Below are positions 9,593 to 61,008 of a stretch of 64,000 nt of DNA, one piece after another. The stretch's first letter is position 1. The number at the start of each line of letters is the position of its first letter. The DNA is from Heliobacteriaceae bacterium. Lineage in GTDB: Bacteria; Bacillota; Desulfitobacteriia; Heliobacteriales; Heliobacteriaceae. The notes beneath the pieces are model-generated. The model did not search any database and was not told the DNA's origin. It saw nothing but the letters and a program-made list of their open reading frames with translations. The position numbers and the translations under genes are program-made. The stretch is taken from positions 1-64,000 of the forward strand of contig JAQWAU010000002.1 in the NCBI GenBank assembly GCA_028707535.1, written 5' to 3'.

Positions 9593-10603
9593 GTGAAAAC
9601 GTACAACGTGGCAATTGTTGGTGCAACCGGGGCGGTCGGTCAGGAACTCCTTAAGGGATTGGCTGAACGGAGATTCCCGGTTGGGGAATTGCGCTTGTTG
9701 GCGAGCCAACGGTCGGCAGGCAAGAAAATGCAACACCAGGGTCGTGAACACACGATTGGGTTGACTGATGCCAACGCTTTTGCGGGTATGGATGTCGTAT
9801 TCTTTGCGGGTGGGTCGGTATCTACCCAGTTTGCCGAACCGGCAGTTGCGGCTGGGGCGGTTGTTATTGACAACTCTTCGGCGTTCCGTCTTAACCCGGA
9901 GGTACCCTTGGTGGTGCCGGAAGTCAACCCGGAGGATCTTGATTGGCACCAGGGCATTATTGCCAATCCCAACTGTTCAACGATCATTTTTGTGGTTGCT
10001 TTAAAACCATTGCACGATGAGGCAACGGTGAAGCGGGTAGTCGTATCCACTTATCAGGCGGTTTCGGGTGCCGGAAGATCGGGGATTGATGAACTCACCA
10101 GGCAAACCAACCAGATTTTGCGGGGAACGGAGGCGGAAAGGCAGGTTTTTCCTTACCCGATTGCCTTTAATTTGATCCCCCATATTGATGTATTCCAGGA
10201 AGGCAGGTATACCAAAGAAGAGTGGAAGATGGTTAAGGAGACCCAGAAGATCCTGCACGTACCGGATTTGCGGATTACGGCTACAACGGTGCGGGTTCCC
10301 GTCTACCGTAGCCATTCGGAATCGATTAATATTGAGTTTGCTCAGAAAATAACGGCGGCGAAAGCCCGGGAAGTTTTGGCCAAGGCTCCCGGTGTTGTCG
10401 TCGTTGATGATCCGGAGGAAAAAAAATATCCGATGCCCCTTTATACCTCCAATCAAGACGAGGTTTTCGTGGGCCGGATCCGGGAAGATTTTTCTGTGGA
10501 TAACGGCTTAAATATATGGGTGGTAGCCGATCAGATTCGCAAAGGGGCAGCTACCAACGCAATTCAAATTGCCGAGACGATGATTAAACGTAACTTGTTA
10601 TAG
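9593..10603 (+). CDS. asd: Aspartate-semialdehyde dehydrogenase
   Basis: VAIVGATGAVGQELLK, NPNCSTI, STYQAVSGAG; GTG start. Confidence 0.96.
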   Translation: MKTYNVAIVGATGAVGQELLKGLAERRFPVGELRLLASQRSAGKKMQHQGREHTIGLTDANAFAGMDVVFFAGGSVSTQFAEPAVAAGAVVIDNSSAFRLNPEVPLVVPEVNPEDLDWHQGIIANPNCSTIIFVVALKPLHDEATVKRVVVSTYQAVSGAGRSGIDELTRQTNQILRGTEAERQVFPYPIAFNLIPHIDVFQEGRYTKEEWKMVKETQKILHVPDLRITATTVRVPVYRSHSESINIEFAQKITAAKAREVLAKAPGVVVVDDPEEKKYPMPLYTSNQDEVFVGRIREDFSVDNGLNIWVVADQIRKGAATNAIQIAETMIKRNLL

Positions 10604-55705: not shown

Positions 55706-57305
55706 GTCTCACGGTTTAAACGGCGAGGAAATAGCCCGGCTTTTGCGGGGTGGGGCGGATTATCTTTACGAACGGCGGGAATTGGTTGATGCCATGAACG
55801 TTTTCCCGGTTCCTGATGGGGATACCGGTACAAATATGGCCTTGACTTTACAAGCTTGTACCAAAGCTTTGCCGGAGCAAGCAGAACCGGCCGGAAAAAT
55901 GGCAGCCCTAGCGGCTAAAGGCGCTTTGTTGGGGGCAAGGGGTAACTCGGGGGTCATCTTTTCCCAACTGTTTTGGGGGTGGGCGAAAGCCTTAGAGGGT
56001 CGACCGGTGGTTTCCGCCAGGGATTGGGCCCAAGCGATGGAAAAAGGGGTAGAGCTTGCTTATCAAGCGGTGATTAAGCCGGTAGAAGGGACAATTCTTA
56101 CGGTGGCCCGGGCAGCGGCGAAGGCAGCGACCAAAACCGCCACCCGCGCAAACAATTTGGAGGAAGTATTGGCGGCGGCGATTGACCAGGGACAACGGGC
56201 CCTGGCTATGACCCCTGATCTATTGCCTGCCTTAAAAGACGCTGGCGTTGTTGATGCCGGGGGGCAAGGTTATTTGTTTTTTTTAGAAGGATGTTTCCAG
56301 GTGCTCAAGGGTGGGGAAGCAATCCTGTCAACTCAGCCGGGTGAATTGACGGCCAGGCCGGCCGGGGTTGTCTTTGAGCACTGTGAGCCGGTTTATTATC
56401 CGTATTGTACGGAATTTGTCCTACGTGGCCGGCATGTGCCGGTTGAGGTCTTCCGGTATAGCCTGCAAGCGTTTGGCGACTGTTTGCTGGTGGTTGGTGA
56501 TGAAGAAGTCGTAAAGGTCCACATCCATACCGACCATCCGGGAAAGATTTTGGAAAAGGCTTTACCGTACGGCAGCTTGCACGAGATTCACATTTCCAAC
56601 ATGCAGGAACAGACAATCAGGCAAGGTGAAAAAAACAACCGGTCACAAGTGCCGGTCGCTTTTGTCACCGCTGCACCATCGGCAGGCTGGGGCCGGTTGT
56701 TTACCGAGCAAGGGGCCGTCCAAACCGTCATGGGTGGTGCGGCGCACAACCCTAGTGCCCAGGAATGGGTAAAGGCGATTGAGGCAACTGCCACTGATTT
56801 TACCATTTTGCTGCCCAACCACCCTAATTTGATTTTAGCTGCCCGGCAGGCGGCCCAAATTTGCGGCACCGAAAAAGTGGGTGTTGTGCCGAGCCGGCAT
56901 TTACCCGGCGGGTTGGCGGCGGCCTTGGCTTTTGATCCCCAAAAAACAGCCGCCGAAAACAAGGCGGCGATGGAAACCGCTGCCGGCCGGGTACATGCGG
57001 TTGAAATAACCCGGGCGGTTAGGGATGCCGTGGTTAATGGCCACCAGGTTAAATGCGGGGAAATCCTCGGTCTTGTAGACGACACGGTAGCGGCGCACGG
57101 TGTTGAGTTGGAAAGTGTTGTTCTGGAAGCGGTGGGTGGCCCGGGCCGGGAATGGGAGTTAATTACCGTGTTTACCGGGGAGGATCTGACGGCAGCGGTG
57201 GCGGAGCAGCTGAGCGAAGTGTTGGCGGCCGCCTATCCCCAGGCAGAGGTGGAAATTTTGCCTGCCGGGCAACCGTTGTACCCGTTGATTATTGGGTTGG
57301 AGTAA
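55677..57305 (+). CDS. fakA: DAK2-domain fatty acid kinase catalytic subunit-like (FakA/YloV)
   Basis: NVFPVPDGDTGTNMALTL, GARGNSGVIFSQLFWG. Confidence 0.93.
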   Translation: MSTASRFPNRSHGLNGEEIARLLRGGADYLYERRELVDAMNVFPVPDGDTGTNMALTLQACTKALPEQAEPAGKMAALAAKGALLGARGNSGVIFSQLFWGWAKALEGRPVVSARDWAQAMEKGVELAYQAVIKPVEGTILTVARAAAKAATKTATRANNLEEVLAAAIDQGQRALAMTPDLLPALKDAGVVDAGGQGYLFFLEGCFQVLKGGEAILSTQPGELTARPAGVVFEHCEPVYYPYCTEFVLRGRHVPVEVFRYSLQAFGDCLLVVGDEEVVKVHIHTDHPGKILEKALPYGSLHEIHISNMQEQTIRQGEKNNRSQVPVAFVTAAPSAGWGRLFTEQGAVQTVMGGAAHNPSAQEWVKAIEATATDFTILLPNHPNLILAARQAAQICGTEKVGVVPSRHLPGGLAAALAFDPQKTAAENKAAMETAAGRVHAVEITRAVRDAVVNGHQVKCGEILGLVDDTVAAHGVELESVVLEAVGGPGREWELITVFTGEDLTAAVAEQLSEVLAAAYPQAEVEILPAGQPLYPLIIGLE

Positions 57306-57322
57306 AGGCAGGTGAGCCGGTA

Positions 57323-59713
57323 TTGTTGTGGCAAAGTCTGCACCGGGCCTTGAAGGTGGAACATGCACTCGGTTACACGGATGGTGGGGTGGTCGGCGGT
57401 TTTGCCCTGCACATTACCGGGTTGTTGGCCAGGCTCGGTTCCAGTTTACCGCAGGCTACCGGTCCATTGCCGGCCCGGTTGGCTTTGTGGGAGCAACAGT
57501 TCCAGAATTACCGGCGTTTGCCCTTGAAAGAACGCCGGGCACTTGTAGAACAGTTTTCCAGCCAGTTGGCGGATTTGGCTGCCCAGGAACATGGGCCGGC
57601 AAAGAATCCGGATGTCGGCGGTGGCGGCCGGAACCACCGGAGGGTAAGTACACCGGTGCAGTACGTCCGGGGTGTGGGACCACGCCGGGCGGAACAGTTA
57701 AAAAGATTGGGTATCATAACGGTTAGTGATTTGCTGTGGCACCTGCCCCTGCGGTATTTCGACCGCCGTCGGATTACGGAAATTGCGGCGATCCGGGGGC
57801 CGGGAGAAGTGAACGTGTCCGGGACAATCCGGGCTTACCAACAACGGCAATCGCGTCGGGGGTTAACCATTTTCCGGGGGACTTTGGATGACGGCACCGG
57901 TAGCTTGCCGTTGGTTTGGTTTAACCGGCACCATCTACCGGCGAAATACCCGCCGGGTTGTGCGGTTGTTGTTTCCGGGAAGATTGAGTTCCGTTACGGC
58001 CGTCCGGAACTGCAAGTTGGTGAAATAGAATCCCAGGAGGAAGCCGGTTTACATACTACCCGGGTTGTCCCGGTTTATCCGGCCACAGATGGCCTAAACC
58101 AGCGGTTCTTGCGGGGGCTGTTTCAACGGGTGCTCACGGATTTCCCCGGTGTCATGACCGGAGTCATACCACCGCCGGTACTAGCCGGACACGGATTGGC
58201 GGACTTGAAAATGGCCTTTGAGTGGGTTCATTTTCCCGCTGATTTGGCTCAGGCGGAAGCTGGGCGGCGTCGCTTGGCTTTTGAGGAAATCTTCCTCGTC
58301 CAGACGACTTGGCAGGTGATCCGGCGCCAAAGAGAAAACCGGGCGACCGGATTCCGGCATCTGCCGGCTGAAGAGGCAATGCAGACATTCCGGGCGTTGT
58401 TACCCTTTGCTTTGACCCAGGCACAGGAACGGGTGATTGCCGAGATTGCCCACGACATGGAGACCGGCCGGGTGATGAACCGTTTACTTCAGGGGGATGT
58501 TGGCACTGGTAAGACGGTTGTTGCCGCAGCGGCCGTAGTCAAAGCGGTGGCTTCGGGTTTTCAGGCGGTGCTGATGGCGCCAACCGAGGTTTTGGCGGAA
58601 CAACACGCTATTGGTTGGCAACGGTTATTATTTCCGTTGGCAATTCCGGTCGGACACCTGGCGGGGTCATTAGGCCGGGGCCAACGAGCGGGAGTGCTCC
58701 AAGGGCTGGCTGAGGGTTCCTTGCCGGTTGTGGTCGGCACCCATGCCCTGCTACAAAATGATGTGCGGTTTAAGCGTTTAGGGTTAGTTGTGATTGATGA
58801 GCAGCACCGTTTTGGGGTGAGGCAAAGAGCAACCTTGTGGGGTAAGGGATCACAGCCGGATTTGCTGGTGATGACGGCGACCCCGATTCCGCGTACCTTG
58901 GCCATTACTTTGTACGGTGATTTAGATGTCTCTGTCTTAGATGAAAGGCCTCCCGGGCGACAACCGGTAAAAACTTACCATGTTGGCAGTAAGGCCTGGC
59001 CGCGAATTTTCAATTTAATTCGTAATCAGGTGGCCGGTGGGCACCAGGTTTATGTAATTTGCCCGGTGATTGAAGAGACTGCGGCATTGGATTTGGCGGG
59101 TGTCGAAACCAGGTACCGGCAGCTTTCCCAGGAGGTTTTTGCGGATTTAAAAGTAGGCATGTTACATGGCCGGTTGAAAAAAGAAGCGAAAGCGGCAGTA
59201 ATGGAAGCTTTTCACCGGGGAGAGATCGATATTTTGGTGGCGACCACGGTAGTGGAGGTTGGGGTCGATGTGCCAAATGCAACCGTGATGGTCATTGAAG
59301 ATGCGGAACGGTTTGGCCTGGCCCAGCTTCACCAGTTGCGGGGCCGGGTGGGGCGGGGAATGGCCCTGGCTTATTGTATTTTGGTGGCCGACCGGTTGAC
59401 GCCGGAAGGCCGGGCCAGGATGCAGGCGATGGTCGCAACTAATGATGGCTTTTGTTTAGCCGAGGAGGATTTGCGTTTACGGGGTCCAGGTGACCTGTTA
59501 GGTACCCGTCAAAGCGGACTGCTCTTGTTTAAGGCCGCCGATATGATTAAAGATAACGATTTATTTGCCCAGGCGAAGGTGGCCGCCCAAGCCTGGCTGC
59601 AGCAAGACCCTGACCTGAAAATGGCGGATAGTCGGGATTTGGTGGCCAGGGTCAGGCAGACATTGCATGGATTGGATTTAGTGCAGGAGGAGAACCTAAA
59701 TCCCGGGAGGTGA
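57323..59713 (+). CDS. recG: ATP-dependent DNA helicase RecG
   Basis: GVGPRRAEQLKRLGI, LLQGDVGTGKTVVAAAA, DEQHRFGVRQR, TATPIPRTL; start codon uncertain (TTG about 57323). Confidence 0.95.
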   Translation: MLWQSLHRALKVEHALGYTDGGVVGGFALHITGLLARLGSSLPQATGPLPARLALWEQQFQNYRRLPLKERRALVEQFSSQLADLAAQEHGPAKNPDVGGGGRNHRRVSTPVQYVRGVGPRRAEQLKRLGIITVSDLLWHLPLRYFDRRRITEIAAIRGPGEVNVSGTIRAYQQRQSRRGLTIFRGTLDDGTGSLPLVWFNRHHLPAKYPPGCAVVVSGKIEFRYGRPELQVGEIESQEEAGLHTTRVVPVYPATDGLNQRFLRGLFQRVLTDFPGVMTGVIPPPVLAGHGLADLKMAFEWVHFPADLAQAEAGRRRLAFEEIFLVQTTWQVIRRQRENRATGFRHLPAEEAMQTFRALLPFALTQAQERVIAEIAHDMETGRVMNRLLQGDVGTGKTVVAAAAVVKAVASGFQAVLMAPTEVLAEQHAIGWQRLLFPLAIPVGHLAGSLGRGQRAGVLQGLAEGSLPVVVGTHALLQNDVRFKRLGLVVIDEQHRFGVRQRATLWGKGSQPDLLVMTATPIPRTLAITLYGDLDVSVLDERPPGRQPVKTYHVGSKAWPRIFNLIRNQVAGGHQVYVICPVIEETAALDLAGVETRYRQLSQEVFADLKVGMLHGRLKKEAKAAVMEAFHRGEIDILVATTVVEVGVDVPNATVMVIEDAERFGLAQLHQLRGRVGRGMALAYCILVADRLTPEGRARMQAMVATNDGFCLAEEDLRLRGPGDLLGTRQSGLLLFKAADMIKDNDLFAQAKVAAQAWLQQDPDLKMADSRDLVARVRQTLHGLDLVQEENLNPGR

Positions 59714-59719
59714 GGGCGG

Positions 59720-59878
59720 ATGGTGGCTCGCGACCGGGATGAGTTTCCCAGTGATGGGGAATTGGCCGATTCCAAGTGGGAGGTAGCCCGGGAAATCGGC
59801 TTGGTTCGCCGGCTCCAGACAGGGAAAAAACCCTATACGGTGCCCCTAACCGAAAACGATTCTCCATCGGAACCATAA
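59720..59878 (+). CDS. Putative small acid-soluble spore protein (SASP)-like peptide, 52 aa (not in ORF track)
   Basis: ATG 59720 after GGGAGGTGAG; MVARDRDEFPSDGELADSKWEVAREIGLVRRLQTGKKPYTVPLTENDSPSEP; KWEVAREIGL resembles the alpha/beta SASP KYEIAxEFG block. Confidence 0.55.
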   Translation: MVARDRDEFPSDGELADSKWEVAREIGLVRRLQTGKKPYTVPLTENDSPSEP

Positions 59879-59884
59879 CCTAGG

Positions 59885-59916
59885 CAAAAAAGAGCACCCC
59901 TTTTTAGGTGGTGCTC
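59885..59916 (-). terminator. Terminator of gpr (possibly bidirectional)
   Basis: GAGCACC...GGTGCTC with a T-run on the minus strand. Confidence 0.8.
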
Positions 59917-59924
59917 AATGTTTA

Positions 59925-60911
59925 TTACTGGAGGTACTGGGCCCATTCGCTGGCCGAAATGCCAGGATGTAAGGCTTGGGCGATACCACCGGCGACAATC
60001 CGGGCCGTATTCAGGATGAGCTGGTCGATTTCTTTGGGGGTCATAATCAGGTCTTGGGCATGAGGTCCTAACACCTGTTGGATGATCTTTTGCATCGCTT
60101 CCGGCTGGATTCCTTTGTATAACTTATACAATGTCGGACTGGTTTGAAACTCGCGGAAAAGCGCTTCCAAGGCTTGATGGGCAATCACCCCGGCGTGAAC
60201 AACCGTGGGAATACCAACCGCAATTACCGGCACCCCCATGGTGCTTTGGGTGATGCCGGCCCGCCGGTTGCCGACACCGGAACCCGGATGAATGCCGGTG
60301 TCCGCTAACTGAATACTGGTGGCAATCCGTTCGACCGCACTGGTGGATAAAGCATCAATGGCAACGATCAGGCGGGGTTGGGTCTTTTCGACGATTCCCT
60401 TGATAATTTCCGAGGTTTCGATCCCCGTCAGCCCGAGGACACCGGGGGATATGGCACTGACCGGGCGGAGGCCGCCTTGCAGTTCCTCGGGGGCGTACTG
60501 GTGTAAATGCCTGGTCACCAAGGTGAAGTCCACTACTTTGGGCCCTAGGGCATCAGGTGTGGCGTGCCAGTTGCCTAAACCTACAACCAGTACGTGGTCG
60601 TCCGGACCTAAAGATAACAATCCTTCTAACTCCCGGGCCAAAATGACGGCGATTTGCAGGTGCTTTTCCCGGTTGTTTTCCCTGATTGGCGGGGCGTCAA
60701 TGGTGACATAGTTACCTGCCGGCTTGCCCATGGCCTGTTCTCCTTGGGGAGACTCAACCTTAACCGTAGTAATTGTTACTTGGTCCTGTTCTCTTTTAAA
60801 AACCCTGACGCCGGGGATATCACTGCCAACCTCTTGACGGAGCAGATCATGGGCCTCAACTGCCAAGTCCAAACGAATACCCATGCTGCGGTAAAGCTTG
60901 GAGCAATTCAA
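59925..60911 (-). CDS. gpr: GPR endopeptidase (spore protease)
   Basis: DLAVEAHDLL, VVGLGNWHATPDALGPKVV, AIDALSTSAVERIATSIQLADTGIHPGSGVGNRR; TTG 60911 after TAGGAGGG. Confidence 0.96.
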   Translation of the reverse strand: MNCSKLYRSMGIRLDLAVEAHDLLRQEVGSDIPGVRVFKREQDQVTITTVKVESPQGEQAMGKPAGNYVTIDAPPIRENNREKHLQIAVILARELEGLLSLGPDDHVLVVGLGNWHATPDALGPKVVDFTLVTRHLHQYAPEELQGGLRPVSAISPGVLGLTGIETSEIIKGIVEKTQPRLIVAIDALSTSAVERIATSIQLADTGIHPGSGVGNRRAGITQSTMGVPVIAVGIPTVVHAGVIAHQALEALFREFQTSPTLYKLYKGIQPEAMQKIIQQVLGPHAQDLIMTPKEIDQLILNTARIVAGGIAQALHPGISASEWAQYLQ

Positions 60912-61008
60912 AGTCAGCCCTCCTAAAATAAAGCTTTGGGAATTGAACCCCAGGATCAATGTGCCACCAATATTCGTGCTTTATCCCCAAGTCACTTTGT
61001 GCCTGTAA

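Follow-up and report, generated by a model that had tools for sequence, protein, structure and literature searches.

The α/β-type SASPs (PF00269; SspA, SspB, SspC, SspF) are small proteins, encoded near gpr and with sigmaG-like promoters, and their helix 1, which forms part of the DNA-binding protein, carries the block K-Y-E-[VI]-A-x-E-[FIL]-G with the site for the germination protease GPR. GPR substrates have Glu or Asp at P1, a hydrophobic residue at P1′, Ala at P2′ and Glu at P4′, all within a helix; zymogen processing and the dry, acidic core of the spore are believed to keep the protease in check. It has specificity for a short SASP sequence and is active only under the conditions of the germinating spore (PMC8538823). 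The second SASP block (GG..MVKKM) contains the glycine whose change in SspC (G52) leads to poor DNA binding (PMC11392383). The γ-type SASP, SspE, has been reported absent from clostridial genomes (PMC3533761), and in Moorella SspA (moth_0925) lies next to Gpr (moth_0926; PMC8745062).

The window analysed here, 64,000 nucleotides of a Heliobacteriaceae bacterium, contains between recG and gpr a short SASP-like gene of 52 amino acids, running from ATG 59720 to TAA 59878 on the + strand; coordinates and translation are exactly those first noted. No description of this gene was found in openly accessible papers on recG, SASP and gpr. The ribosome-binding sequence reported upstream is present as GGGAGGTGAG at 59705–59714 (+) and overlaps the recG stop codon (TGA, 59711–59713). 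The open frame of recG extends from 57152 to 59713 on the same strand, with its true start further in, and stops 6 nt before the ATG of the short gene. That start codon is backed by relatives, in which LPERDRDE aligns with MVARDRDE of the window protein. On the other side, gpr (59925–60959, − strand) is convergent with the short gene, and its product has the B. megaterium spore protease 1c8b as best solved relative (E 2.9e-76). Alignment with 1c8b locates a putative self-processing site, D|LAVE, at 60855–60869 (−), conserved in heliobacteria and corresponding to the position at which B. megaterium GPR is processed. A hairpin at 59891–59914, between the two convergent genes, is terminator-like for gpr, with the T-run CTCTTTTTTG on the − strand. 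The first-pass annotation had proposed a terminator common to both genes; no T-run was detected on the + strand of the hairpin, so that the proposal holds for gpr while sharing is not established.

The open reading frame at 59720–59878 is a real gene. A search of 60 relatives found an ORF at the same position in five other heliobacteria and in further families of the window's class, the best heliobacterial relative being 56% identical over 36 amino acids. Over 24 orthologs of one genus pN/pS is 0.093, indicating strong purifying selection; variable columns at codon positions 1, 2 and 3 number 13, 5 and 34 of 41. Read in the other two frames, these orthologs have ratios of 3.1 and 4.4. Between heliobacterial pairs the ratio is 0.06–0.33, and pairs that include the window protein give 0.34–0.45 at near-saturated pS. 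An unconserved frame or a lack of coding constraint, named beforehand as grounds against the gene, was thus looked for and the gene was not refuted. Synteny and conservation reject a chance ORF. The idea of a degenerate SASP has to be abandoned: purifying selection and occurrence beside intact SASPs reject a pseudogene and point instead to a conserved lineage of its own. Nor is the gene a decayed SASP copy, because it coexists with complete SASPs at the recG-gpr locus in other classes. A recent origin by truncation of full SASPs is likewise rejected: intermediate forms were not seen, and the short form has a signature of its own that is common across families.

The resemblance of SKWEVAREIGL to the SASP block, on which the first reading of the gene was based, reflects homology. 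When the 1,923 ORFs in the six frames of the window were compared with a full-length SASP profile, the short ORF matched best (E 3.6e-4, runner-up 0.13), and it also ranked first with a profile built from short homologs outside the heliobacteria (E 0.04, runner-up 4.4). Alignment of the short-family profile with the full-SASP profile (hhalign, 97.8%, E 9e-13) establishes homology to helix 1 of α/β SASPs. Within this short family the window protein represents a divergent heliobacterial form. It had no Pfam match at E ≤ 10, the 22-bit cut-off of PF00269 not being reached, and no match in NCBIfam or PHROGs; the heliobacterial short members score 19–21.7 bits against PF00269, under the cut-off, and some short relatives pass it (25.8–27 bits) over profile positions 4–37 of 59 only. 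The PF00269 search that had been proposed as a check therefore leaves the window protein itself unmatched and places some of its relatives above the cut-off over helix 1. Neither NCBIfam models nor solved structures were matched. As to the γ type (SspE), the window protein lacks any Pfam or NCBIfam match, the relatives exceed the cut-off for PF00269 only, and the box is of the α/β kind. In a comparison with PHROGs, phrog_10367, a family without assigned function, was matched by 18 of 20 aligned short proteins (best E 1.4e-4), a hint that SASP-box proteins are encoded by some phages.

Members of the short family have 35–69 amino acids, a single SASP helix of the form E-x-[FL]-K-Y-E-V-A-Q-E-[MI]-G-[LI], as a rule a basic tail, and no second SASP block. 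Their anatomy was compared in 60 distinct short proteins and 42 full SASPs. The second block, with its conserved glycines, is absent from the window protein, as had been noted, and from all members classed as short, an absence that is partly definitional since the sorting used the block 2 pattern, although visual inspection of the sequences was used as well. The window box, K19-W-E-V-A-R-E25 (59774–59794, + strand), retains the K, E and E that hardly vary, if at all, in either group; in the short proteins both E residues are invariant and A is kept in 56 of 60. The groups differ at the next-to-last box position, which is Q in 56/60 short proteins versus 5/42 full SASPs, and where full SASPs carry L, I or V the short family has mostly M or I, giving the signature Q-E-[MI]-G. 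The 20 residues after the box have a mean net charge of +4.0 in the short family against 0.0 in full SASPs, with +2 in the window protein, and the sequence of this tail differs between families. AlphaFold2 models, of modest confidence overall, give the window protein one helix, residues 12–34, at a pLDDT of about 83, followed by a low-confidence tail, and a full-length SASP from its own genome two helices.

The gene was described at the outset as encoded beside its protease, and its distribution ties it to gpr. A profile search for the short gene and a search for gpr in all 83 genomes of the window's class found the short gene in 67 of the 74 gpr-bearing genomes and in 0 of the 9 without gpr, counts that are not independent events, since the genomes are related and some of the nine are incomplete assemblies. 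All 67 genomes with the short gene have gpr; this co-occurrence is no proof of partnership, because gpr marks spore-formers in general. The inspection of recG-gpr intergenic ORFs suggested earlier bore out the arrangement: the two genes are convergent in 65 of 65 same-contig pairs, within 600 nt in 57 of them, and recG, located by tblastn of its product, adjoins the short gene in most relatives, the latter usually lying behind it. As a rule the gene is single copy; a Desulfosporosinus-like genome (G066) has two near-identical copies 8 kb apart (L049:2080-2211 and 10062-10193). Dehalobacter restrictus (L053, G012), from which spores are not reported, has gpr and the short gene intact. Genomes G034, G046, G049, G055 and G082, all of genus g19, lack both, which suggests loss of sporulation in that genus.

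In a sample of 399 genomes of the phylum, the short family occurred in at least 11 further families, hence in at least 15 with the four of the class. Outside the class the order is often recG, short gene, one or two full-length SASPs and convergent gpr (L075, L076, L077, L079, L081, L083, L086, L089, L090 and L111). Two tandem full-length SASP genes separate the short gene from gpr at L076, L081, L083, L085 and L086. Upstream, the place of recG is taken by another gene at L080, L084 and L099, and recG was not found at L085 and L087. In Moorella-like genomes, tandem SASPs next to gpr have the same convergent placement, and L078 includes a short member among full SASPs, whereas the annotated ones are full length. 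Among 20 loci chosen on gpr similarity alone, four (L098, L099, L103, L111) have the short gene; despite its wide distribution it is thus by no means universal. In the window's class the full SASP at the recG-gpr spot seems to have been lost and the short gene kept, the direction of this change being inferred. Where the locus is broken, the short gene stays with recG, gpr lying 2.5–14 kb off, at L046, L060, L061 and L066, and stays with gpr, away from recG, at L080, L084, L038 and L050. A strict linkage to recG only or to gpr only is rejected, as neither holds everywhere.

Upstream regions of the short gene were scanned with a sigmaG weight matrix written from the known consensus, not trained (GNATA/CAWAMTA; PMC3416734). 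Sites above the 95% shuffle level were present in 34% of 64 regions, and in 45% of 44 regions of full SASPs, taken as positive control. In many relatives sigmaG-like sites lie at consistent distances, as in GTATG-N18-AATAATA and GTATG-N17-CATACTA. In the window no recognisable sigmaG site was found upstream of the short gene, recG ending 6 nt before it, and the gene may ride on recG transcription.

Residues E21-V22-A23-R24-E25 of the window protein, within its predicted helix, match the GPR-substrate pattern given above, and the positions for recognition, E, A and E, are kept across the short family. The predicted cut falls between E21 (59780–59782) and V22 (59783–59785, + strand), KWE|VARE, and not at WEVAR-EI as first suggested. 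The sequence is compatible with, and fits, a GPR substrate or regulator. SASP-type coating of DNA is unlikely because block 2, with the glycine needed for DNA binding by SspC, is absent. Taking into account both (i) the GPR pattern of the box, E|VARE, acidic-hydrophobic-Ala-x-Glu as in D|LAVE of the window GPR, although the latter is part of the protease itself and the likeness is one of motif only, and (ii) the lack of block 2, we favour, on balance, a model in which the short protein is half a SASP that serves as a GPR ligand. In the model, it would be made in the forespore, as a minor spore-core protein, together with SASPs and GPR. It would be unable to saturate the DNA as full SASPs do. 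GPR would recognise it through K-Y-E-V-A-x-E and cut it at E|V during germination; as a working analogy, it would resemble SspE in being cleaved by GPR without coating DNA. Its likeliest role, the least certain step, would be that of a small dedicated ligand occupying or timing the protease, and not that of a DNA shield or a bulk amino-acid store. That GPR is actually controlled by a pseudo-substrate or timing decoy that consists of one SASP half and is conserved in many spore-forming classes beyond the Bacillus model, we put forward as a tentative proposal.

The main rival to the GPR-ligand role is nucleic-acid binding through the basic tail, with which the tail charge could be equally compatible. 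In this explanation, which we regard as possible but rather doubtful, a mini-SASP would bind DNA or RNA within the core of the spore, by itself or with full SASPs, and the box would serve only for clearance by GPR. A tail of 20 residues with a net charge near +4, where full SASPs have 0, and the part of helix 1 in α/β SASP binding to DNA agree with it; the absence of block 2, with the SspC G52 position (PMC11392383), the lack of tail conservation between families and the mere +2 of the window tail do not. Less probable still is an ordinary minor GPR substrate without regulatory role, an amino-acid reserve or relic kept because it is cheap. The gene is dispensable, seven gpr-bearing genomes of the class doing without it, a fact that speaks against the GPR-ligand reading and suits this one, as does its retention with gpr in Dehalobacter restrictus; a near-invariant core, strong purifying selection, usual single copy and small size fit a specific role better. 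A RecG-linked accessory factor for genome repair in spore revival is highly improbable, for although the gene lies directly behind recG in most genomes, even at the four loci where gpr is distant, and RecG has been linked to the revival of B. subtilis spores (PMC8227628), it leaves recG for gpr at four others, is absent where gpr is absent, and has the SASP box as sole recognisable motif.

In spore-formers outside Bacillus, a conserved, gpr-linked protein with the recognition site and without the DNA-binding half is a candidate for either a second layer of control on GPR or a minimal SASP. Half the domain is enough to lift several relatives over the Pfam SASP cut-off, and they may therefore well be listed as SASPs in public annotation; because one such match can hide either of two different proteins, SASP counts mix both. 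Published heliobacterial counts are 2, 3 and 4 (PMC9147875). We found two full SASPs in a Heliorestis-like genome, three and no short gene in a Heliophilum-like one, and three plus the short gene in Heliomicrobium; because 2, 3, and 3 plus short match the published figures, the short protein has probably been counted already as an ordinary SASP and not recognised as a separate kind, the four SASPs of H. modesticaldum (PMC9147875) agreeing in number with three full-length proteins plus the short one. Another compact kind of SASP, MSERLKYELAQELGF...TTRDAGNLVRAAIERAE, in which the second block is shortened and lacks the GG motif, occurs in the window genome and in a Moorella-like genome (L033:1447-1650 and L078:2286-2555).
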